Source: a virus
Strand: one strand, 5' to 3'
Length of the DNA: 36,626 nt
IMG/VR virus record: IMGVR_UViG_3300017763_004146
Coordinates: 1-36,626 of that record
Shown piece after piece: positions 3,772-31,890 of this stretch. Under the pieces are notes generated by a model. That model searched no databases and was not told the DNA's origin. It was given only the letters and a program-made list of their open reading frames with translations. The stretch's first letter is position 1; every line of letters begins with the position of its first letter. Position numbers and translations under genes: made by a program.

Positions 3772-5634
3772 ATGGCTACAACAAATGTTAAAATCTTATT
3801 AAGACGCGGATTCAGAAATGAAATTGGCAACGATACCCTTGAAACTGGCGAAATGGGTTTTGCTACTGATACTAATCAATTATACATTGGTATAGATAAA
3901 GCAATAAACGAAGTACGTTTTGATCCATTTGCAAACGCACAATCAGTTATTCAATCTTGGTTAGACAGTGCAGATAATCCAGAACCTGGATTAAAAGTTG
4001 ATGAAGACCTAGTTATTCGTCAAGTAACAGATGTTGATGCATTACTTGATGCAATGAATTTCTTTGTACAGACAATTACATTTGATACGATATCAACAAC
4101 ATTTACACCCGGTCATACTTTAAATCAAAAATATAATAAAGAATTAACAGATCCTGCTCAATATGTAATTTATGAAACAGGTGAAATTCTTTCTACAACT
4201 GTTACAGCCACTACTACTGAGGTTACAGTAAAAATAAGTGAATCAGGACGATTTGATGAAGTTGGTCAATTTTATACACCAGGCGGATTCAGAGGAGTAG
4301 CTGATGTAACAAAAACTCTTACGGCAGATATCAACGATGCAAGTGATCCACTAATCACTCCTGTTAGTTCAGTAGAGATAAGTGATCCAGCTTTATTACC
4401 AGATGATTATTATATTCCTGAAACTATAGATGTTAATAATGGGGTAGATGCAGAATATCAGTTAACTAGAGCAAATGCAGATTATACATATGTATACGAT
4501 AGTACTAATAAAAAGTATACTATTACTTTTGCTACACCTATTGCAGATGGTAAAGTTCAACAAGAACAAATTGGTTCAACAAGTACACTAACAGGTGATG
4601 GAACAGAAACACAATTTAATTTGTTAACTTATCCAGACCCAGCACCATCAAGTGTTGTAGTTAAAGACAGTGGCGGAAATGTATTGGCAACTCCAGCAGA
4701 TTATGAAATCTATGACCAAAATCATGCAAACTATAATGGTGTCGTAGAAGAAATAAAATTTACTACTGCTCCAGCAATTGGTACAGTTACTATTGAATAT
4801 AATGAAAACGTTGACGTAGATGAAAACGCAAGAGTTGACACACTAAAAGTTAATTTTTCTGATAACGGTGCATTTATATATGAAACAGTTGACACTGCCG
4901 ATGTAGTAACAGATTTATCATCATTGGTTACAGTTGCTCCACATATCACAGGTGGTTCTGATTTTCGTGTAAACAGATATGCAGGTGCAAGACGTAATGT
5001 AGAAGTAGTAACAGAAAACTCATTTAATCAAATGTTTGCAGACCAACATTTAGAGGCTTTAGATGCCTCAACAGGTCTACGTTCAAGTTTATTCAACAAA
5101 GAATTAAAGCAAAGACAACACGGTCCTGATAAGTTAGAGACTGGTTTAGAATATAAGATATTAGTTGTTGGTACAAATACTGATGCCCAAGCAAATTGGA
5201 ATACAGTAGCAGGAACAACTGGCGTAACATATGCAGTAGGTGATACTTTCACTGCTACTAGTCAAGTAGCGGCAGAAACAAACCAAGGTTCTGCAATTAC
5301 AAATCAAGGTACATTTTTAAAATACCCTAAAAACGATTGTACATCATTTTTTATTGATTACTCGCTAAAACAAGCAGATGCAACTAATACATATGTAAGA
5401 GTTGGACAGATAAAAGCAATTAATGGTGTGCCTCAAGGTATCAATCAAGTAAAATTAAGTGATGATAACACAGAAATTTGGCAAGACGATGGTGACAATA
5501 TTGCGGAAGCTGATGAATTTTCAAACATAACTTTCACTGCTACTATAGTTGGTGATGATGTCATATTTAAATTTACACAAGATTACGACTTTGAGACAAA
5601 TATAAGTTTTACGGTTAAAAGATGGACAATGTAA
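3772..5634 (+). CDS. Virion structural protein, tail/fibre type
   Basis: 620 residues, preceded by AGGAG. The first ~45 residues (ILLRRGFRNEIGNDTLETGE, then MGFATDTNQLYIGID) match the N-terminal 'major tropism determinant'-like module used by phage tail and fibre proteins to join the virion. Most of the remainder is Thr/Asp/Val-rich, beta-strand-rich and lacks Cys clusters, as in fibres. Two segments (about 280-340 and 180-260) have repeated strand patterns of the form TFATPIADG or KFTTAPAIGTVTIEYN. It is followed almost at once (5636) by a small gene of unknown function. Exact position in the particle is unknown. Confidence 0.75.
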   Translation: MATTNVKILLRRGFRNEIGNDTLETGEMGFATDTNQLYIGIDKAINEVRFDPFANAQSVIQSWLDSADNPEPGLKVDEDLVIRQVTDVDALLDAMNFFVQTITFDTISTTFTPGHTLNQKYNKELTDPAQYVIYETGEILSTTVTATTTEVTVKISESGRFDEVGQFYTPGGFRGVADVTKTLTADINDASDPLITPVSSVEISDPALLPDDYYIPETIDVNNGVDAEYQLTRANADYTYVYDSTNKKYTITFATPIADGKVQQEQIGSTSTLTGDGTETQFNLLTYPDPAPSSVVVKDSGGNVLATPADYEIYDQNHANYNGVVEEIKFTTAPAIGTVTIEYNENVDVDENARVDTLKVNFSDNGAFIYETVDTADVVTDLSSLVTVAPHITGGSDFRVNRYAGARRNVEVVTENSFNQMFADQHLEALDASTGLRSSLFNKELKQRQHGPDKLETGLEYKILVVGTNTDAQANWNTVAGTTGVTYAVGDTFTATSQVAAETNQGSAITNQGTFLKYPKNDCTSFFIDYSLKQADATNTYVRVGQIKAINGVPQGINQVKLSDDNTEIWQDDGDNIAEADEFSNITFTATIVGDDVIFKFTQDYDFETNISFTVKRWTM

Positions 5635-6076: not shown

Positions 6077-6095
6077 ATACATACATAATTAACTA

Positions 6096-6103
6096 GATAA
6101 ATA
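6096..6103 (+). promoter_or_regulatory. Late promoter GATAAATA
   Basis: GATAAATAC, with predicted +1 at about 6109, leaves only about six bases before the ATG at 6115. A second, weaker AATAAATA lies at 6072-6079. It would drive the 6115-8459 baseplate-type genes. Confidence 0.6.
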
Positions 6104-6114
6104 CGAGAAAGCAA

Positions 6115-6420
6115 ATGTTAAAACAAAAAAGATACGATAAAGATGATATTGTCACACTAGTAATGGTAGGTGGACAAGAATTATTAGGGAAGTTTGTTAG
6201 TGAAAGTGGAGAATATTTTATTCTAAAAAAACCATTAACACTGGTATATGGAAAGCAAATTTCATTTCAGCCATTTACTGTAACAGGTGATAGTGAAAAT
6301 GAAGTAGTTCTATATTCTGATAAGATAGTTTCAGTTTTACAAACAAACAAAGAAACAACAAAGGCTTATCAATCTGCAACAAGTGGATTAGTAACGCCAG
6401 ATAAAGGATTAATTACGTAA
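6115..6420 (+). CDS. Small protein with Sm/Lsm-like strand pattern
   Basis: 101 residues. The stretch DIVTLVMVGGQELLGKFVSE followed by a strand ending FILKKPLTLVYG, then QPFTVTG and a final strand VVLYSDKIVSV, resembles the five-strand order of Sm/Lsm (Hfq-like) proteins: a 'v.l..GgqEllGkf' first motif and a late short strand motif. Similar small proteins occur near PAAR genes of T4-like marine phages, as far as I know without an assigned job. An RNA-binding function is not shown. It overlaps the PAAR gene by a TAATG, so a baseplate role is equally possible. Confidence 0.6.
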   Translation: MLKQKRYDKDDIVTLVMVGGQELLGKFVSESGEYFILKKPLTLVYGKQISFQPFTVTGDSENEVVLYSDKIVSVLQTNKETTKAYQSATSGLVTPDKGLIT

Positions 6421-16100: not shown

Positions 16101-17121
16101 CTTAAGGTTATTAATAGTAGGTGCTGGAGCTGGTAGTAATTTTATTGCATCTAGGCTAATTGATGGACAAACCGATGATGCGAAAGAATCAGATTTAAAT
16201 AATGAGTACCGTGCAAACAGAGAGTATGGTGGAATAAGAAATACAGTAAAAAATGAAGTCAAACATATGTCAGGAGAAGTATTTGACTTCAAAGAAAATG
16301 AACGATATCAGATTCTTATAGATGGAATATTAAAATCTAAATTTCCAACTGCGTTAGAACTTAGCAGAAAAGTAAAGAAACCTAAGTTATTATCAAGTAT
16401 TATAAATGTCATAAATCTAATGAGTAGATGGGATGGAGAAAAATTCTTAGATAAACCTCAAGCAGGTTATATAACATTAACTAACAGAATAAAACGTCAG
16501 TGGAGATATAATCTTTTTTGGAGACAACCACATTTTTGGTTTGAAAAAATTGAAATGTATATGGCTAATTTTGAAAAATGGACTAGGGAAAATAAACATA
16601 AAAGTAATATGTCAATATTGCTTACTGATGATTATAAAAGAACTAAAGAGTTTATAAGCAAATGGAATATGTTGGCTTGGGAAGTGCATAAGATAGAAAA
16701 TCAACCTTTGACTTCTATAGAGCATTACTTGCCTTTGTTTATGGATAAGAATGTTACGAAAGAGTTATCTAAACTAGTAAATATATGTGTAGTACACGTA
16801 GATGATAATACTACGGGCTTTGTTACAGATATACTAAATATGAAACATATGACTGAAACTATTAGAGAACAAACAAATTCTGTTAAAGTGATGGGACCAA
16901 ACTACGAAGAATTAGAATATGCAGATGTTGTAGTAAGTTATAGAAAGTTGTTTTATGATGCTAGTCCTACAGAAATACGTAAGTTATTTAAGTTTGTGGG
17001 TAGGGAAGAGTATTTTGATAATAATAAAGAAAAAGAAATAAAAGCATTTCACGATTATCATATGAGTAATGTAAACTATTACGTTGATAATTGGGAAGAA
17101 CTAAGCGAGGAGATTGTATGA
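16084..17121 (+). CDS. P-loop/sulfotransferase-like protein, paralog 3 of 3
   Basis: 345 residues. The N-terminal LLIVGAGAGSNFIASRLIDG is the most P-loop-like of the three. The C-terminal VVSYRKLFYDASPTEIRKLF and FVGREEYFDNN blocks are shared with paralogs 1 and 2, as is the final 'F.dYH..N' motif. It ends in an ATGA overlap with the deformylase gene. A tailoring or surface-modification role is inferred from the neighbouring epimerase and SGNH genes. Confidence 0.55.
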   Translation: MQKVDNLRLLIVGAGAGSNFIASRLIDGQTDDAKESDLNNEYRANREYGGIRNTVKNEVKHMSGEVFDFKENERYQILIDGILKSKFPTALELSRKVKKPKLLSSIINVINLMSRWDGEKFLDKPQAGYITLTNRIKRQWRYNLFWRQPHFWFEKIEMYMANFEKWTRENKHKSNMSILLTDDYKRTKEFISKWNMLAWEVHKIENQPLTSIEHYLPLFMDKNVTKELSKLVNICVVHVDDNTTGFVTDILNMKHMTETIREQTNSVKVMGPNYEELEYADVVVSYRKLFYDASPTEIRKLFKFVGREEYFDNNKEKEIKAFHDYHMSNVNYYVDNWEELSEEIV

Positions 17122-17633
17122 CTGTATTACAGTTGATAGATGAAAAAGACGAGAGACTAAAACAAGTATGTGCTAAACATGAAATAGATGAAGCTACAGA
17201 AAAATTAGTATATGATATGATTGTAACAATGCAAGAACATGATGGTATAGGACTTGCGGCACCGCAGTTAGGTGTTATGGAACAGATATTTGTAATAGGA
17301 CACAAAGATGCAGGATTTGTTGTTTGTATAAATCCAACTTGGGTTCCTACTACAGATGCTAAGTTAGAAAAGTTTCAAGAAGGTTGCTTAAGTTTTCCTC
17401 ATCTAGCATTGAACATAGAAAGATACAATCAAGTACATTGTACATTTACTAATCTAAAGGGCGAAACACAAACTCGTTTGTTTAATGGTGTATGGGCACA
17501 AGCGATACAACATGAACACGACCACTTAATGGGTATAACATTTGATAAGAGAGCAAAGACAAGTCAATTAAGTAGAGCATTAGCAATACGTAAAGAGAAA
17601 CTAAAAAGAATTAAAAAGAGAAGTAAAGATTAA
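17118..17633 (+). CDS. def: Peptide deformylase
   Basis: 171 residues. All three family motifs are present: GIGLAAPQ (43-50), EGCLS (88-92, metal-binding Cys90) and QHEHDHL (131-137, His132 and His136 as ligands with Glu133 catalytic). It removes the formyl group from new proteins. GGAGA precedes the ATG at 17118, which overlaps the previous stop (ATGA). Phage deformylases are known from cyanophages, where they are thought to help keep photosystem or other phage proteins in supply; here it joins several other translation-related genes. Confidence 0.9.
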   Translation: MTVLQLIDEKDERLKQVCAKHEIDEATEKLVYDMIVTMQEHDGIGLAAPQLGVMEQIFVIGHKDAGFVVCINPTWVPTTDAKLEKFQEGCLSFPHLALNIERYNQVHCTFTNLKGETQTRLFNGVWAQAIQHEHDHLMGITFDKRAKTSQLSRALAIRKEKLKRIKKRSKD

Positions 17634-19729: not shown

Positions 19730-20083
19730 ATGAAAACATCAATTATCGGACTGCTAGTCGCAGTCTTTTTTTCTGCAACGGCGTTTGCAGAAGACACAAG
19801 TGTATCAAATGATATTTCTTGGTCTCTAACATTAGAGAGACAAACAGAAGCAAATGCTAATACAGGCGAACTAATGGGGACTATGGAAGTTTTAGGACTT
19901 GATGTTTCTGCGGGTGGACTGTGGAACATTGATAAATCAGGTGAAGATTTTATTGACTTGAATAAAACGATGTTAAATGTTAGCCACTCGCTTTCTGACC
20001 AAGCAAAAGTGTATCTAAAGAATGACTTTAGTACAGATTGGGACAGAACTGAGTCAACAATAGGTCTACAAATTACGTTTTAA
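19730..20083 (+). CDS. Secreted outer-membrane-barrel-like protein
   Basis: 117 residues. AAGGAGG lies five bases before the ATG at 19730; the upstream in-frame ATG at 19706 is not preferred. The N-terminus (MKTSIIGLLVAVFFSATAFA) is a signal peptide with an AFA cleavage site. The mature part has alternating polar/apolar strands (SWSLTLERQ, VLGLDVSAGGLW, AKVYLKNDF) and ends with IGLQITF, a C-terminal Phe as used for outer-membrane protein assembly. At about 97 mature residues it is too small for a classic porin. A role in envelope change or superinfection exclusion is a guess. Confidence 0.65.
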   Translation: MKTSIIGLLVAVFFSATAFAEDTSVSNDISWSLTLERQTEANANTGELMGTMEVLGLDVSAGGLWNIDKSGEDFIDLNKTMLNVSHSLSDQAKVYLKNDFSTDWDRTESTIGLQITF

Positions 20084-20087
20084 TTTG

Positions 20088-20118
20088 TTGACAAAAACAC
20101 CTCTATAGTGTATAAATA
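20088..20118 (+). promoter_or_regulatory. Overlapping early and late promoters of the tmRNA gene
   Basis: TTGACA (20088-20093), 17-bp spacer and TATAAA (20111-20116) form a sigma70 promoter; the -10 box is also the late box TATAAATA (20111-20118). Both predict a start near 20123-20124, so the RNA could be made throughout infection. Confidence 0.75.
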
Positions 20119-20123
20119 TAGAT

Positions 20124-20402
20124 GTTAACGTTGAAGCAAGTTCAACACTATACAGGACCTGGGGGCAGTACCCAGCAGGTCCACCATAAACACATTATCA
20201 GTTTGCATTAGTGTGTTTATGATGGGCCTGAACTAGGATCGACTGGTGGTTAATAGGCGAGTGGAGTTAACCGAGTGACTTCGTTATTGGTCAAACACTA
20301 TAATTGCAAACGACAATTATCAGCCAGAAATGGCAATGGCGGCCTAATTTAGGCACGTAGGGGTTGGTGACTTGCCTGGCAACAGAAAAGTCACATTTTT
20401 AT
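20124..20402 (+). ncRNA. ssrA: Circularly permuted two-piece tmRNA
   Basis: The acceptor piece comes first: the T-arm CTGGG-GGCAGTA-CCCAG is followed by the 3' acceptor strand CAGGTCC (20176-20182) and ACCA. A hairpin spacer (TAAACACA/TGTGTTTA, about 20187-20220) would be cut out. The coding piece begins GGGCCTG (20224-20230), which pairs with CAGGTCC with one G-U, then AACTAGGATCGAC. The resume codon GCA is at 20306 and the tag reads ANDNYQPEMAMAA, stop TAA at 20345. The ANDN start, the AA end and the permuted order are alphaproteobacterial features. tmRNA rescues stalled ribosomes and marks the unfinished protein for ClpXP; this genome also carries ClpX. Confidence 0.93.
20367..20402 (+). 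terminator. Terminator of the tmRNA gene
   Basis: GTGACTT (20367-20373) pairs with AAGTCAC (20388-20394), followed by ATTTTTAT. The hairpin may also belong to the 3' end of the coding piece. Some read-through into the ferredoxin gene, 22 bases further on, is likely because no other promoter is seen. Confidence 0.7.
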
Positions 20403-20423
20403 TTGGGAGTGGGTTTTTTGTAA

Positions 20424-20762
20424 ATGGCATACGTAGTAACGCAAGATTGTATAAAATGTAAGTATACTGATTGTGTGGAAGTTTGTCCCGTTGATTGCTT
20501 TTATGAAGGCAAAGATACTTTAGTTATTAACCCAGATGAATGTATAGATTGCGGTGTTTGTGAACCCGAATGTCCTGCAGAAGCAATAATTCCTGATACG
20601 CATGAAAAATTTACAATGCGACTCTACGATATAAATAAAAAGTGGTCAGAACAATGGCCAGTAATTACAGAAAAGCAAGATCCCTTACCTGATGCTGATT
20701 CACTAAATCCAGCAATGGGATATTCAGAAGATAAGACAAAGTTGTTAGATGAATACGATTGA
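20424..20762 (+). CDS. fdxA: 7Fe ferredoxin, FdxA type
   Basis: 112 residues, the normal length of this family. Cys9, Cys17 and Cys21 (with CPVDCFYEG) can hold one cluster and Cys40, Cys43, Cys46, Cys50 ([12 protein letters not shown]) a 4Fe-4S cluster; the C-terminal extension ([12 protein letters not shown]) is typical of proteobacterial FdxA. It carries low-potential electrons; phage partners could be oxygenases or reductases, but none is shown. It follows the tmRNA gene and overlaps the next gene by 14 bases. Confidence 0.9.
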
Positions 20763-22442: not shown

Positions 22443-22990
22443 TAATGACTAAAAAAGATTATGGTTATCCTGTTTGGGTAGTTGAAGAAGTATTTGAAAC
22501 TAATGTGGCAGATGATGTATTAAGACAATCAAAAGATTTACCATTTGTTCCAATGGAAGGCAAGAGAACAGATAAAACAGGTAAAAGAAATTGGATGAAT
22601 CAATATAAAGGCAAAGAATGGAATTCATTTGAAGAAGTATGTTTATTGTTTGATAGTAAATATATGAAAAAAAAGTTTAGTGACGTTTGTGAAAAAGACT
22701 TTACTAACTTAGGTACAAGAATAGAATTATGCAAAGATGCAAAAGGAAGTTGGTTGCACAATCACTTTGACGATAAAGCAAAGTTATTTACTTTACAGAT
22801 TTACTTAACAGACACAGATACAAGTACAAGTTTTATGAAGAAAGATACTCCTGCAAGAAAAAATACAGGTTGGTTCTTTGCAAATACAGGAACTGAACTT
22901 CATGGACTAAGTGCTTTGACACAAAATAGAATAAGCATCATTGTTAACTATTGTGATGAATCATGGAGAGATAGGTCTGTAATTGTATGA
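22439..22990 (+). CDS. 2OG-Fe(II) oxygenase-like protein
   Basis: 183 residues from the ATGA-overlapping start at 22439. LHNHFDDK gives HxD (His109, Asp111), TELHGL the distal His155 and NRISIIV Arg164 as the 2-oxoglutarate contact. Sequence blocks such as LFTLQIYLTD fit the jelly-roll strands of prolyl-hydroxylase-like phage proteins. Substrate unknown; its operon mates are the tandem paralogs and an FkbM methyltransferase, suggesting glycan or small-molecule modification. Confidence 0.75.
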   Translation: MIMTKKDYGYPVWVVEEVFETNVADDVLRQSKDLPFVPMEGKRTDKTGKRNWMNQYKGKEWNSFEEVCLLFDSKYMKKKFSDVCEKDFTNLGTRIELCKDAKGSWLHNHFDDKAKLFTLQIYLTDTDTSTSFMKKDTPARKNTGWFFANTGTELHGLSALTQNRISIIVNYCDESWRDRSVIV

Positions 22991-23709
22991 GATATAAAAA
23001 TAGTAATCAAAGAACTAAAGACTATCTAGCTAGATTTGACAAAAATAAAGTTTTACAAAACTTGGTAGGTACGGATACGCCTGTAATTTTAGATATTGGT
23101 GCTAACATTGGTCAAACTGTAGAAAAGTTAAAGATTATATGGGAGAATGCAGTAATACATTCTATAGAGCCTTTACCAGAAGCCTATCAGGAACTATACT
23201 TAACGAAGGGCATAATGTCAGATGTATATGTGTATAATCATGCTCTAGGCTCAGTAAATGGTTGGCAAGAGTTTAATGTCAATAAACATCAACCTATGCT
23301 TAGTGGTTTCTATAAGCTAAATGAGAATAGCAAAGATAGTATTGCTATCAATAAACCCGAAAAGGCACATAAGAACTTCTTAGAATCTGAACCCACACAG
23401 ATACCTGTTATGACATTAGATACGTTTACAAAGCAACATAACATAGAAAATATAGACATAATTAAGATGGACGTTCAAGGTGCTGAGCCTGAAATACTAG
23501 AACATGGTATTGAAACATTAAAAAATACACGAATCGTTCTTACCGAACTATCACTATATGATTTGTACGAAAAGCAGTGTAGTTTCTATGATATAGAAAA
23601 AACGTTGATTCCCTTGGGTTTTGAATTATATGATGTTGCTCATGTCAGCAAAAATCCAATGAATGGTCGTACAGATTGGGTTGATTTAATTTATTTGAAA
23701 AAAAGTTAA
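22987..23709 (+). CDS. FkbM-family SAM-dependent methyltransferase
   Basis: 240 residues; start in an ATGA overlap. The SAM loop VILDIGANIGQTV is at 33-45, the acidic SIEPLPEAYQEL block follows, and the family's IIKMDVQGAEPEIL motif with VLTELSLYDLY is present. FkbM enzymes usually O-methylate sugars or small molecules. Last gene of the run that begins at the ferredoxin. The next strong promoter lies nine bases after its stop and drives an RNA. Confidence 0.85.
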   Translation: MRYKNSNQRTKDYLARFDKNKVLQNLVGTDTPVILDIGANIGQTVEKLKIIWENAVIHSIEPLPEAYQELYLTKGIMSDVYVYNHALGSVNGWQEFNVNKHQPMLSGFYKLNENSKDSIAINKPEKAHKNFLESEPTQIPVMTLDTFTKQHNIENIDIIKMDVQGAEPEILEHGIETLKNTRIVLTELSLYDLYEKQCSFYDIEKTLIPLGFELYDVAHVSKNPMNGRTDWVDLIYLKKS

Positions 23710-23717
23710 AAAAAGGG

Positions 23718-23746
23718 TTGACTTTCCCGAATCATTATGCTATATT
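23718..23746 (+). promoter_or_regulatory. Sigma70-type promoter of the orphan RNA
   Basis: TTGACT (23718-23723), 17-bp spacer, TATATT (23741-23746); predicted start 23753. No open reading frame follows within 300 bases on this strand. Confidence 0.75.
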
Positions 23747-23752
23747 AATAAA

Positions 23753-24066
23753 CATAAGCATAAAACAATTTAGCGGTTGTTTTATTGTAGTGCAAGGAAG
23801 AGGCTGTTACCAGACGGTCGAACTTGACTAGTTAGGGGTGGTACCCAGGCTTAAAGCTGAGAGGCTAAGAGTCACATCGTTCTACCGAACGGAACTAGGT
23901 TCCCTGGATTCAGAATGGTATCTGTGTCGAGGGGTTGGGGGTGTAACCAAGTCCCTCCTACTTTGCTTATATTTCTGATTGCAATACCAAGCAATCAAAA
24001 TTAAGAGACGGTTAGCAAACCATATTTTACTCACTTTCATTTCATATTGCTAACTGTCTCTTTTTT
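23753..24066 (+). ncRNA. Unassigned structured RNA
   Basis: A gene-free stretch with strong promoter and terminator. Its GC-rich core stands out from the AT-rich genome. Visible pairings: ATAAGCA (23754-23760) with TGCTTAT (about 23964-23970), closing a domain of ~215 bases; ATAAAACAA/TTGTTTTAT hairpin just inside; GGGT/ACCC; CGTTC-UACC-GAACG; GGAAC/GTTCC; and GAGGGG-TTGG with CCAA-g-TCCCTC (23929-23957). A further hairpin GATTGC/GCAATC follows before the terminator. I compared it mentally with RNase P RNA, 6S, SRP RNA, glnA riboswitch and TPP riboswitch and found no convincing match. Mature size could be about 220 or 310 bases. Confidence 0.7.
24003..24066. terminator. Long-stem terminator of the orphan RNA
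   Basis: A 16-bp stem with one G-U (24003-24018 and 24047-24062; core GAGACGGTTAGCAA with TTGCTAACTGTCTC), 28-base loop, then a T-run to 24066. It also lies at the 3' end of the convergent minus-strand gene and may act in both directions. Confidence 0.75.
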
Positions 24067-24760
24067 ATTTCTCTCCAATTATAGATTTTATTTTCCAAGG
24101 TGTAAAGCATACAGTACCTAAACTTATGTGGTCTGCTCCTGCATCTATATAAGTCTGAGCATCTTCTTTAGAATATACTCCACCACCTGCTATGACTTCT
24201 ACGTGAGGATACTTATCTTTTATATAAGCAATAGTCCCCAAGGTATAGGGTTGAAGAATCTTTCCAGAAAGCCCACCCTTTTCACTGTGTAATGTGTTAC
24301 TTGCATGAATTTGTTTATATCCTTTATCTACTATTTTATCTATTAATTTATGTTTTGCAGTTGGAGGTATTTTAACTATACACCATTTATTCTGCATATG
24401 TTCTGGAAACTTATCGAAACCTTCAAATGTCGTAGTGTCTTCATGTGAATCTAAGTTAGGACAACTTATATTTAATTCTATATTTCTAACACGACTAATA
24501 GTTGTTCTTATTGTTTCCCAATCTGATTTTTCTATGGCCGCAAGTGATAACAAATTATCATATGATGTCTTCATCATTCCAGCACGTAATCCAGGATTGC
24601 GTAAACCTAATTTGTTTCTCCAACCCTGTTTAGTATATCTTAATGTTTTGATTATTTGTTTTAGTCTTCCTGGTCTTGGTTCTACTGTCCAGGTACCTGT
24701 AACACTAACTGTATCTTTAAAGTTGAGATAGTTTCCAAATGGTGCGGCTATAAAAAACAT
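24065..24760 (-). CDS. Dihydroorotate dehydrogenase-like flavoprotein
   Basis: 231 residues, shorter than typical PyrD (~310 or more) and missing part of the N-terminal barrel. Blocks present: AAPFGNYL and SVTGTWTVEPRPGR at the start, LRNPGL, IELNISCPNLD, WCIVKIPPT, HASNTLHSEKGGLSGKIL and the FMN-phosphate site VIAGGGVYSKEDAQTYIDAG with HISLGT. These fit class 1 PyrD, the pyrimidine step from dihydroorotate to orotate. GAGGAAAA precedes the ATG at 24760. With the downstream location to the synthetase-like gene it forms a minus-strand pair. The shortened length leaves room for a different substrate. Confidence 0.75.
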   Translation of the reverse strand: MFFIAAPFGNYLNFKDTVSVTGTWTVEPRPGRLKQIIKTLRYTKQGWRNKLGLRNPGLRAGMMKTSYDNLLSLAAIEKSDWETIRTTISRVRNIELNISCPNLDSHEDTTTFEGFDKFPEHMQNKWCIVKIPPTAKHKLIDKIVDKGYKQIHASNTLHSEKGGLSGKILQPYTLGTIAYIKDKYPHVEVIAGGGVYSKEDAQTYIDAGADHISLGTVCFTPWKIKSIIGEK

Positions 24761-24794: not shown

Positions 24795-25616
24795 TTATTT
24801 CTTATCTAGTGCAGAAATCATCCTAGTCATTCCAATTCCTCCACCAACTCTTGGGAAGAAATCAAATTCTAAGAATTTTTCTAGTTCTGCTTCTACTCTT
24901 TCTTTAGAAAATAGTTTGTACAATAATTCTGAGTATTCACCATTTGTTATTGTGTGAAAAGTATCTCTCATCATTTCTACATCACATGAACGTTCTGCGG
25001 ATCCAATAGTTTCCATTCCACCTAAGATAACATCTATCTTCTTACTAGTTGCACCGCCTTCATTTCTGCTCATATTCCAGAACGGAGATGTCATTTCAGG
25101 AAAATCTGTAATCATTGTTGAACCGAATTCTTCAAACATTTTAGTTTCATGTTCTGCTTCCATTTCTACTGTTGGTTCTAAGTTGTAATGTTTTTGCCAA
25201 TCAGCATATGTTCTTTCTTCTGGTTTAGGGAACTCTAAGTATTCACATAGTTCGTATTCCATCTTTTTCAAATCATCAATGTCACCTGGCATTTCAAATT
25301 CAAACATTGGGAAGATAATATCGTGTCTACCTGGAATTGCATTTGGCTCTTGTCTATAGGACGTGGAGACACAAAAAAAGCCCTTTGTATCGGGCTTTGA
25401 GAGTAATTCGTGTTCTAACCACATTTGGCCTGTTTGGGGAAGCGGCCAGACTTGGCCTGCGTAATTGTATGTTGCTACATTGAACGGGTCTTCACATGCC
25501 GCCAATATAGATAATCTGTTTTGGGTATGGACTTCTAAAAATCCTTTATCCAAAAAAAATGACCTTAAAAGGCCAACTGTTCTTGTAAATTTATCCGGAG
25601 ATATTAATTGTGTCAT
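24795..25616 (-). CDS. Class II Asp/Asn-tRNA-synthetase-like protein without anticodon domain
   Basis: 273 residues from the ATG at 25616, preceded by AAGGAA; an upstream in-frame TTG at 25640 is less likely. Motif 1-like FFLDKGFLEVHTQ, motif 2 STSYRQEPN...GRHDIIFPMFEFEM and motif 3 VGGGIGMTRM (Arg kept, the usual Asp replaced by Thr) define a class II AsxRS catalytic core. The N-terminal OB-fold that reads the anticodon is absent. Such free cores include asparagine synthetases related to AsnRS and other aminoacylating or amidating enzymes, so the product may be asparagine or a modified molecule rather than a charged tRNA. Rare in phages as far as I know. Confidence 0.7.
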   Translation of the reverse strand: MTQLISPDKFTRTVGLLRSFFLDKGFLEVHTQNRLSILAACEDPFNVATYNYAGQVWPLPQTGQMWLEHELLSKPDTKGFFCVSTSYRQEPNAIPGRHDIIFPMFEFEMPGDIDDLKKMEYELCEYLEFPKPEERTYADWQKHYNLEPTVEMEAEHETKMFEEFGSTMITDFPEMTSPFWNMSRNEGGATSKKIDVILGGMETIGSAERSCDVEMMRDTFHTITNGEYSELLYKLFSKERVEAELEKFLEFDFFPRVGGGIGMTRMISALDKK

Positions 25617-25690
25617 TTTCTTTTCCTTTTTGTTATCCAAAAAAAAATATAGCCAAAAAAAAATTTGGTATTCGTTTTTGATGTTGTTTT

Positions 25691-25873: not shown

Positions 25874-26836
25874 ATGGATGCACTCACCCTATGGATGGCA
25901 ATAGGATTTCTATTTGCCGCATATTCAGTAATCGCAAACGATTCAGTACAAACTCTTGGTACTTGGATTGCATCAAATAACGAAAAATTTAATTGGAAGA
26001 TAATGTGGGGAGCCGCAAGTGCGGTACTGCTTTATACTTTGTGGTATGGTTGGACAACTAATGGTGGAGATATTAGTTACGGACGATTAAACAAAATTCC
26101 ATTTCAAGAGATTCAATGGTATCATGCCGCCGCACCAGGCTTACTATTGATATTAACAAGAATAGGTGTACCAGTAAGTACAAGTTTCTTAGTGCTAAGT
26201 GCATTTGCTAGTACGTTTGTATTAGAGAAGATGCTAGTCAAATCAATGATGGGTTATGCAGTTGCGGCTGTGGCGGCATATGTAATCTGGATTGGTGTTA
26301 CTAAAATACTTGATGAAGCAAAACCAGTCGCTGAAAATCATAAAATGTATTGGCGAGTAGGTCAGTGGGTAACAACTGGCTTTTTATGGTTTACTTGGTT
26401 ATCACATGATATGGCAAACATTGCCGTATTCTTACCAAGACAAATCCCATTTGATTTAATGGTAATGGTAAGTGCAGTATTTGTATTTGGCTTAGGTTAT
26501 ATATTTTATACTGGTGGTGGTAAAATACAAAACATCGTAATTGAAAAACATAACACACGTTATGTAAGAAGTGCTACAATAATTGATTGTGTATATTTTC
26601 TAATTCTTTGGTTCTTCAAAGAACTGAATGATATACCAATGTCAACAACTTGGGTATTCGTAGGATTACTTTGTGGTCGTGAACTTGCTATGGCAACTAT
26701 TACAGGTAAAGAAAAGTTTAAAACTGTTTTCCCTCTTGTAACTAAAGACTTCATAAAGATGATGATTGGTTTAGGTGCAAGTGTTGGTGTAGTCTTATCT
26801 ATTCACTATATAATTGTTCCCAACGGTTTACACTAA
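25874..26836 (+). CDS. PiT-family inorganic phosphate transporter
   Basis: 320 residues with about nine hydrophobic segments. The duplicated PiT signature appears as VIANDSVQTLGTWIASNN near residue 20 and SHDMANIAVFLPRQIP near 178; PVSTSFLVLSAFAS and PMSTTWVFVGLLCGRE are the matching re-entrant/TM motifs of the two halves. PiT proteins take up phosphate with a cation. A phage copy would raise phosphate supply for DNA synthesis in phosphate-poor water. The second-half motif differs somewhat from GANDxANAxG, so a related anion is possible. It has a structured leader and both promoter types. Confidence 0.8.
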   Translation: MDALTLWMAIGFLFAAYSVIANDSVQTLGTWIASNNEKFNWKIMWGAASAVLLYTLWYGWTTNGGDISYGRLNKIPFQEIQWYHAAAPGLLLILTRIGVPVSTSFLVLSAFASTFVLEKMLVKSMMGYAVAAVAAYVIWIGVTKILDEAKPVAENHKMYWRVGQWVTTGFLWFTWLSHDMANIAVFLPRQIPFDLMVMVSAVFVFGLGYIFYTGGGKIQNIVIEKHNTRYVRSATIIDCVYFLILWFFKELNDIPMSTTWVFVGLLCGRELAMATITGKEKFKTVFPLVTKDFIKMMIGLGASVGVVLSIHYIIVPNGLH

Positions 26837-30086: not shown

Positions 30087-31361
30087 TTGGCTGACAAAAA
30101 AGATTATCATTGTTCATTTTGTGGGAAACATAAGAATGAAATTAGTACATTAATTGCAGGTCCTTCGACATTTATCTGTAATGAATGTATTGACCTATGT
30201 CACTCTATCGTATATGAACGCAAGAATGTAACTAAAAAATCTAAAACTGTAAACAGTGACATTCCGACACCTGACGAAATTAATGAGTTTTTGAATGCTC
30301 ATGTAATTGGTCAGGGAGAAGCTAAAGAAGTCCTGAGTGTGGCTGTTTACAATCATTATAAAAGAATTAATCAATCAGAAGATGATGATGTAGAGTTAGA
30401 GAAATCTAATGTTATGATGCTCGGTCCTTCTGGTACAGGTAAAACACTCTTAGCAAAAACAATCGCAAAATTCTTAGATGTTCCTTTCGCACAAGTCGAT
30501 GCAACTACATTAACAGAAAGTGGTTATGTAGGTGAAGATGTTGAAAACGTAATACAACGTTTACTTATGAATGCAGACTTTGAAATTAAGAAAGCAGAAC
30601 AGGGTATTATCTACATAGATGAGATAGATAAGAAAGCTAAAAAGGGTGAAAGTATTTCAATCACTAAAGATGTTAGTGGTGAAGGTGTTCAACAAGCCTT
30701 ATTAAAAATTGTTGAAGGCACTGTTGTTCGTGTTCCGCCAGGTGGTGGGAGAAAACATCCAGGTGCTGATATGCTTGAAGTTAATACTGATAACATTTTA
30801 TTCATTGTAGGTGGTGCATTTGTAGGACTTGATAAAGTAATCAAACGAAGATTGAATTCAAATGGTTCAATTGGTTTTGGTGCAAGAGTTATGGCACAAG
30901 ATAGCAGTGATGATATGACAGTATCACAAGAAGTGTTGCCAGAAGACGTAATTAAATATGGTATCATTCCAGAATTTATGGGTCGTTTTCCAATACTTGT
31001 AGGCATAGACGATTTAACTGAACGTGAGTTAAGTCGTATATTAACAGAACCTAAGAATAATTTAACTGCACAATTTAAGAAGATTTTTAAATTAGATGGT
31101 GTAGATTTAAATTTTACTGAGGATGCAATAACAGAGATATCTAAAATAGCAAAAAAGAATAAGACTGGAGCAAGAGGTCTAAGAAGTGTTTTAGAAAAGT
31201 CATTGTTAAAATTACAATTCAAATTACCTAAGCTATCAAAGAATGCTGGCTTAACGTCTGTTGAAATAACTGGTGACTTTATTAATAAAAATGCTGATCC
31301 AATTTTGGTATTTAAGGATGAAACAGAGGAAAATATAAACATTAATGAAAAGAAACTTTAA
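30087..31361 (+). CDS. clpX: ATP-dependent protease unfoldase ClpX
   Basis: 424 residues, full length, probable TTG start. N-terminal zinc domain with Cys9, Cys12, Cys31, Cys34; Walker A GPSGTGKT (113-120); pore loop GYVGED (146-151); Walker B IIYIDEID (174-181); pore-2 GGGRKHPG (219-226); the ClpP-docking IGF tripeptide (262-264); PEFMGRFP with Arg300; sensor 2 GARGLRS (361-367). ClpX unfolds substrates such as tmRNA-tagged proteins and feeds ClpP. With the IGF loop kept and no ClpP gene seen here, it should use host ClpP. It overlaps the IF-3 gene by 17 bases. Confidence 0.95.
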   Translation: MADKKDYHCSFCGKHKNEISTLIAGPSTFICNECIDLCHSIVYERKNVTKKSKTVNSDIPTPDEINEFLNAHVIGQGEAKEVLSVAVYNHYKRINQSEDDDVELEKSNVMMLGPSGTGKTLLAKTIAKFLDVPFAQVDATTLTESGYVGEDVENVIQRLLMNADFEIKKAEQGIIYIDEIDKKAKKGESISITKDVSGEGVQQALLKIVEGTVVRVPPGGGRKHPGADMLEVNTDNILFIVGGAFVGLDKVIKRRLNSNGSIGFGARVMAQDSSDDMTVSQEVLPEDVIKYGIIPEFMGRFPILVGIDDLTERELSRILTEPKNNLTAQFKKIFKLDGVDLNFTEDAITEISKIAKKNKTGARGLRSVLEKSLLKLQFKLPKLSKNAGLTSVEITGDFINKNADPILVFKDETEENININEKKL

Positions 31362-31890
31362 AGATGAAAGAGGGCGAAAGCCTTTTATTATCGCTAACCA
31401 ACGTATCCGTGCAGACGAGTTACGTGTGGTAACAGACCAAGGTGAGCAACTTGGTATCATGCAAAAAAATCAAGCACAACAAAAAGCGGATGCTGACGGA
31501 TTAGATTTAGTTCTTATAGTTCCTAACGCCAATCCTCCTGTAGCAAAAATCATTAGTATAAATAAGTACAACTACGAAATCAAAAAACGTGAGAAAGAGA
31601 AGGCAAAACTAGCCAGACAAAATTCAGTTGAAGTTAAAGAAGTTAAGTTCAGACCAGCTATAGGCGAGAATGACCTAAAGATGAAACTTAACCAAGTTCA
31701 AAAGTTTATTGACAAAGGCAATAAAGTAAAAGTGACAATACAAATGAGGGGCAGGGAAAATGCAAAAGCTACAGAAGTTTTAGCATATTTCAATTCCCAA
31801 ATCTCTGAATACTTGAGTAGTTTTAAGTATGACCTTCCTCTAAAAACTAACGGGAATAGAATAATAGGTGTAATAATAAAAAATGACTAG
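31345..31890 (+). CDS. infC: Translation initiation factor IF-3
   Basis: 181 residues, the full two-domain length. N-domain: KPFIIANQRIRADELRVV and LDLVLIVPNANPPVAKII; linker rich in Lys/Glu; C-domain: VKEVKFRPAIGENDLKMKL, VKVTIQMRGRENA. IF-3 controls start-codon choice and keeps subunits apart. Unlike many bacterial infC genes it starts with ATG rather than AUU, so the classic autoregulation is absent. It overlaps ClpX (start) and bS21 (end). Phage IF-3 is unusual; it may bias the host ribosome towards phage mRNAs. Confidence 0.95.
   Translation: MKRNFKDERGRKPFIIANQRIRADELRVVTDQGEQLGIMQKNQAQQKADADGLDLVLIVPNANPPVAKIISINKYNYEIKKREKEKAKLARQNSVEVKEVKFRPAIGENDLKMKLNQVQKFIDKGNKVKVTIQMRGRENAKATEVLAYFNSQISEYLSSFKYDLPLKTNGNRIIGVIIKND

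Follow-up and report, generated by a model that had tools for sequence, protein, structure and literature searches.

Architecture of the locus

The window, by which we mean the whole 36,626-nucleotide stretch analysed here (IMG/VR record IMGVR_UViG_3300017763_004146), contains a gene-free interval (23753–24066) flanked by two genes. Upstream is an FkbM-type methyltransferase gene on the plus strand (22987–23709), the neighbour used to find the eight related contigs discussed below, and downstream is a convergent dihydroorotate-dehydrogenase-like (DHODH-like) gene on the minus strand (24065–24760). The longest open reading frame (ORF) overlapping positions 23745–24064 encodes 52 amino acids. 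The interval has a folding energy of −103.2 kcal/mol, compared with −77.9 kcal/mol (s.d. 5.05) for shuffled sequences, giving a z score of −5.0, and none of 100 shuffles was as low.

Other features of the window include a permuted alpha-type tmRNA (20075–20438, predicted tag ANDNYQPEMAMAA), which lies 3.3 kb before the RNA described here, and genes for a peptide deformylase (17091–17633), a ferredoxin-type protein (20424–20762), a class-II tRNA-synthetase-like protein (24795–25640) and a translation-initiation-factor-like protein (31345–31890).

The interval is preceded by a predicted sigma70-type promoter on the plus strand (23718–23746), composed of a −35 element TTGACT (23718–23723), a 17-nt spacer and a −10 element TATATT (23741–23746) with TG ahead of it, scoring 10 of 12. 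From its position, transcription is predicted to start at about 23752–23754. Sites of this kind are, taken alone, in no excess over chance, with 10 in the surrounding 2 kb against 8.5 expected. The window promoter is credible because its spacing to the RNA is constant in relatives, and not by its score alone.

The predicted RNA body (23754–23970, plus strand) is closed by a helix of ATAAGCA (23754–23760) with TGCTTAT (23964–23970), spanning 217 bases, whose pairing is also predicted in relatives. On the same strand it is predicted to contain a first hairpin AAAACAA...TTGTTTT (23762–23783), a hairpin GGCTGT/ACGGTC (23802–23819), a hairpin with a GUGGUA loop (23835–23846) and a hairpin CGTTC-TACC-GAACG (23878–23891). 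A small hairpin, TGATTGC/GCAATCA (23976–23997, plus strand), variable in relatives, separates this body from a terminator-like stem (24003–24066, plus strand). In the latter, 24003–24018 pairs with 24047–24062 through 16 pairs, including one G-U, around a 28-nt loop (24019–24046) that contains ACTCACTTTCATT, and a T run follows. Our terminator scan accepts loops of 3–8 nt only and did not list this stem.

The initial annotation had described a near-consensus promoter, an ATAAGCA/TGCTTAT closing helix, internal hairpins in a gene-free interval and a 16-bp terminator stem, and each of these is present. A promoter and a terminator of its own, two features of an independent small RNA gene, are thus found by sequence in both the window and its relatives.

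A divergent member of the manA family

Rfam identifies the RNA as manA (RF01745), with a match at 23769–23967 on the plus strand that scores 59.8 bits, above the family's cut-off (gathering score 55.2), and covers model positions 1–192 of 192. No other Rfam family was found in the interval, and a permissive search yielded manA alone. By sequence comparison, the window RNA is a divergent manA RNA. The initial annotation had called it an orphan structured RNA resembling no nameable class. Its description as structured, with its own promoter and terminator, stands at the level of sequence, and its orphan status does not, since a full-length match above the curated cut-off, the outcome that the annotation had named as refuting, rules out an unnamed class. 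Of the roles that it suggested, the RNA may have any, whether regulatory, decoy or catalytic. The motifs CTGAGA and GGGTGG are suggestive of a THI box, and a TPP riboswitch was rejected as a candidate because the permissive search returned only manA.

Weinberg et al. introduced the manA family in 2010, drawing on marine metagenomes and cyanophages, and marked it 'Y' for cis-reg and 'y' for switch, as a probable riboswitch; the family is also known from gamma-proteobacteria (PMC2864571). Its ZWD alignment, now Rfam's source for the family, contains 48 significant base pairs (PMC7779021), and manA is one of the ocean's better supported structured RNAs. It often adjoins tRNAs (PMC3692125, PMC10832533), and its weak, cloverleaf-like connection with the tRNA model has been noted (PMC3692125). 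Some members carry modular structures (PMC3023696). On the Bifidobacterium megaplasmid pMP7017, which bears a tRNA array, manA and tmRNA are among the non-coding RNAs found by transcriptome analysis (PMC10832533). The accessible portions of the manA literature report no experimental function and, supplements aside, make no claim of an independent trans-acting transcription unit.

Among cellular contigs, the cyanophage-type pattern gave manA in 0 of 18 loci chosen from 80 of at least 117 stretches, the window-type pattern gave no manA, and a distant BLAST search of plasmids gave a 22-base match only. These scans do not show absence from cellular genomes and plasmids, since manA is known from gamma-proteobacteria (PMC2864571) and from a Bifidobacterium plasmid (PMC10832533).

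Conservation of the fold

Across 23 distinct relatives and 50 pairs, 99.0% of cells contain a standard pair, and both partners have changed in 27 of the pairs. None of 500 shuffles of this alignment (23 sequences, 50 pairs) matched any of five pairing measures. The compensatory changes include the GGCTGT/ACGGTC hairpin and all five pairs of the CGTTC-TACC-GAACG hairpin. The 27 compensatory pairs and the 99.0% of cells paired therefore argue for selection on the folded RNA; conserved pairing in relatives, the check that the initial annotation had proposed, is borne out.

Two elements are less secure. A modelled kissing interaction between GGUA (23840–23843) in the GUGGUA loop and UACC (23883–23886) is paired in 96.7% of cells, with no compensatory change and one pair broken in 3 of 23 sequences, and we regard it as unproven because there is no co-variation there. 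A pseudoknot between a GUGGU loop and an ACC loop was drawn with a question mark by the original manA authors (PMC2864571). The outer closing helix is predicted with altered letters in several relatives and is unconvincing in the tmRNA-linked ones.

The FkbM-linked lineage

Positions 23700–24100 of the window are identical to part of a 342,607-base IMG/VR contig, from which it follows that the window probably derives from a jumbo phage. The FkbM gene led to eight contigs, seven related and one identical to the window, each with one manA behind FkbM; together they represent five distinct sequences across the manA stretch. The promoter, manA and the 3′ hairpin are retained in all eight, and the downstream genes change. 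One contig (L165) has a convergent DHODH-like gene, and three (L166, L167 and L172) have a convergent class-II tRNA-synthetase-like gene. In L170 and L171, a convergent tRNA-Asn is followed by a class-II tRNA-synthetase-like gene. L168 and L169 have neither a DHODH-like nor a synthetase-like gene; there, about 270 nt separate manA from the start of a same-strand gene homologous to window positions 25874–26836, and the counterpart of this gene in the window and the other long contigs sits further on. Among viral records with the DHODH-like gene (42 loci, L161 being left out of the manA search), 40 of the 41 searched gave no manA match, many of these records being fragments. As a separate observation, the tRNA-Asn(gtt) of L170 and L171 occupies positions 6091–6178, convergent to manA and beside the synthetase-like gene.

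The 3′ hairpin may do more than terminate transcription, because its loop sequence ACTCACTTTCATT is constant in all eight contigs while the stem changes, and because L170 and L171 keep the hairpin with no clean T run. As an antisense seed, ACTCACTTTCATT was found, with up to one mismatch, at five places in eight records besides the eight manA places, and no target emerged; the three of these five places that were inspected were each overlapped by an ORF on one or other strand, and this candidate was set aside. A role of the manA unit as a 3′ UTR of FkbM is conceivable, because FkbM is always upstream in this lineage.

The window's manA subtype

A pattern built on the conserved core retrieved 44 contigs which, with the Pelagibacter phage Mosig EXVC030M, provide 29 distinct variants. 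Two variants have too little upstream sequence for the promoter count. A promoter scoring at least 10 of 12, with its −10 element at a constant distance from the core, precedes 24 of the remaining 27. The three promoterless loci (L204, L217 and L218) have a permuted tmRNA directly upstream instead. Terminators stand no more than 110 nt past the end of manA in 23 of 28 variants, whereas random windows drawn from these loci gave 36 of 560. The five variants without one are L191, which has a hairpin with no clean T run; L204 and L217, where a terminator lies further on; and L218 and Mosig, where a gene follows.

Among pairs of subtype manA sequences at least 97% identical, the next 1 kb is similar in 67 of 72. 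Only five of the 72 have no downstream similarity, and the subtype unit is therefore found mostly in similar surroundings. L188 and L225 have 99.5% identical manA sequences with different terminators and no downstream similarity. L192 and L194 have identical manA sequences with different terminators and first genes; L192 and L213, the latter the same variant as L194, are similar again within 1 kb.

In the three tmRNA-linked loci, the permuted tmRNA (L204, 5104–5733; L217, 4308–4933; L218, 6704–7194) ends 10–13 nt before manA, apparently in one transcript, and L204 and L217 have about 110 more unannotated bases before the terminator. In the jumbo lineage and Mosig, the tmRNA lies 2.4–3.3 kb upstream. 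Linkage to tmRNA was rejected as a rule. Since the tmRNAs of marine phages often come in two pieces (PMC9004378), we claim no functional connection between the two RNAs.

Cyanophage-type manA RNAs

A cyanophage-type pattern returned at least 120 contigs; among those listed, 104 manA matches occur in 103 records, with 102 above the cut-off. Six listed matches cut at contig ends and two outside the analysed loci were left out, leaving 96 for study. Promoters were counted in 89 distinct listed matches with 100 bases upstream, and downstream classes in 94. The tRNA count covers 96 listed stretches, one contig (L085) being entered twice for its two manA RNAs.

A promoter of at least 10 of 12 stands at the start of 79 of the 89 listed matches, compared with 0–6 of 89 in 20 shuffles. 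In most of these listed cases, the −10 element ends five bases before the model's first position. Of the ten other listed matches, eight have, by eye, TTGACA before TATAAATA. In several listed loci (L050, L014, L049 and others), again by eye, the −35 TTGACA falls inside an upstream terminator-like hairpin, GAGGG-TTGAC-ACCCTC-TTTTTTT, an overlap that would make a very compact insulated junction just upstream of manA.

Downstream of the 94 listed matches, a crude rule assigns 33 to a terminator, 6 to a tRNA, 10 to a late-promoter-like sequence and 45 to an ORF with no called terminator, tRNA or late promoter ahead of it. The ORF starts within 60 nt in 33 of these 45 listed matches, 3 of which have a called start that overlaps with a terminator hairpin. 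A stricter terminator count gives 31 of the 94 listed matches, against 37 of 470 random windows. Where listed pairs of manA sequences are at least 97% identical, the next 1 kb has no similarity in 20 of 31.

All seven tRNAs that ARAGORN found in the 96 listed stretches lie within 52 nt of manA, and Rfam adds one, in the listed locus L069, 49 nt after manA. Five of the seven listed tRNAs within this distance are tRNA-Asn (L034, L007, L009, L094 and L054).

Immediately after 24 of the 96 listed cyanophage-type manA RNAs (L049, at about 4575–4613 on the minus strand, and 23 other loci) comes a further hairpin, GACCUAAGAUGCAAC...GGGCAGAUGGUC. Among the matches listed, it occurs 25 times across 357 loci, 24 of these times after a manA-type 3′ end. 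In the listed loci that were scanned, it belongs to no Rfam family at gathering scores, and it may be one of the modular manA structures mentioned in PMC3023696.

In 12 cyanophage records, Rfam scores manA at 142–193 bits, behind gp23, pstS, regA, ferredoxin or other genes. The first gene annotated beyond manA in P-TIM68 is convergent.

A probable free-standing RNA gene and its alternatives

For the window's lineage, we consider it likely that manA is an independent phage RNA gene running from promoter to terminator, and probably one that acts in trans. Host-type RNA polymerase would initiate at the sigma70 promoter, with the first transcribed base at the foot of the closing helix, and would transcribe about 310 nt before stopping at the terminator hairpin. 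The product, a structured phage RNA folded into the manA core, would then most probably act in trans by binding a partner, which could be a protein, the ribosome or another RNA. Transcription, the 5′ and 3′ ends and this action in trans are what we infer for the lineage, which presents a compact unit with both ends predicted to a few bases. In this setting the RNA cannot serve as an ordinary 5′ leader, because no same-strand gene stands before the convergent one and because the downstream genes change among relatives. What is unusual is the promoter–manA–terminator unit before a convergent gene; the manA family and its adjacency to tRNAs were already known.

The best surviving alternative, which we nevertheless judge unlikely, is that manA is a riboswitch or another cis-acting leader that has lost its gene here or been cut off from it, or whose terminator is an attenuator. 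A cis-regulatory and switch assignment is in print (PMC2864571), and some arrangements are as a leader would have them: 33 of the 94 listed cyanophage-type matches have a gene within 60 nt and are not separated from it by any called terminator, late promoter or tRNA; Mosig manA is followed by rubrerythrin after about 23 nt; and L168 and L169 have their same-strand gene at about 270 nt. Since the homologue of that gene lies further downstream in the other long contigs, it is possible that convergent genes were inserted between manA and the same-strand gene, cutting off an ancestral leader. However, the lineage keeps its promoter and 3′ hairpin while the downstream genes change, the window offers no same-strand gene before the convergent one on which an expression platform could act, and near-identical cyanophage manA RNAs precede unrelated DNA (20 of 31 pairs) or tRNAs among the matches listed. 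Attenuation was rejected: pairing between the terminator 5′ arm and the 3′ part of manA is no better than in shuffles across 23 variants (ranks 7–99 of 100), with a slight lean, 17 of the 23 ranking below 50, in what is a crude duplex test.

When all of manA is considered, the argument for a free RNA is no more than suggestive, since roughly one in three cyanophage copies leads directly into a gene. We put at somewhat less than even the chance that manA overall is not a riboswitch but a self-contained noncoding RNA gene that roams among phages and other mobile elements, which would have its own promoter and often its own 3′ hairpin, would sometimes be co-transcribed with tRNA or tmRNA, and would act in trans. 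The leader and free-RNA arrangements may be compatible if an RNA transcribed from its own promoter is released by processing where a terminator is absent, as would be natural beside tRNAs and tmRNA. Two properties of the samples bear on all these counts: the viral contigs were retrieved by manA patterns, which favours conserved copies, and many sequences are related, so that counts are not independent events. Should manA prove to be a free RNA and not a switch, searches for a ligand would be misdirected.

The put RNA of phage HK022, synthesized at the beginning of a transcript, modifies RNA polymerase and thereby lets it pass downstream terminators. By analogy, manA could be a cis-acting antitermination element that alters polymerase to pass later terminators, which seems improbable. 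Most copies do come first in the transcript of their promoter, and behind many of them a terminator precedes a variable gene; the mechanism is possible for many loci. It makes little sense before a convergent gene, as in the window, where readthrough would run antisense into that gene; moreover, genes past the terminator often have, by eye, promoter-like or late-promoter-like sequences of their own, and in three loci manA follows a tmRNA and is not at the start. A relic or selfish promoter–terminator cassette with a functionless RNA is scarcely credible, even though the unit is found in many different neighbourhoods, because 27 compensatory pairs and 99.0% of cells paired require selection on the folded RNA.

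Comparison with known systems

GOLLD and ROOL resemble manA in setting only, as phage-encoded structured RNAs of unknown function that are often near tRNAs; they form separate families, many GOLLD members being longer than 800 nt (PMC12286853), and neither has an Rfam match in the window. The manA of pMP7017, compared here by description only, is like that of the window in being an RNA on a mobile element with a tRNA array and a tmRNA, found by transcriptome analysis. In contrast to the window, pMP7017 is a plasmid and not a phage, and its authors kept the riboswitch label (PMC10832533).

An individual counterpart is the manA of Mosig EXVC030M (MT647606.1), with 74.7% identity over 61% of the query and the same promoter spacing. 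It differs in that no terminator is called and rubrerythrin follows almost at once. Compared with the 12 cyanophage records, at 142–193 bits, the window's 59.8 bits marks a distant member. Rfam types RF01745 as Cis-reg, which implies a 5′ UTR position and is a label rather than part of the model; the window RNA does not occupy such a position, having its own terminator and a convergent next gene. In the order of its helices and loops, in its full-length match above the gathering score and in its marine phage origin, the window RNA agrees with RF01745 manA.
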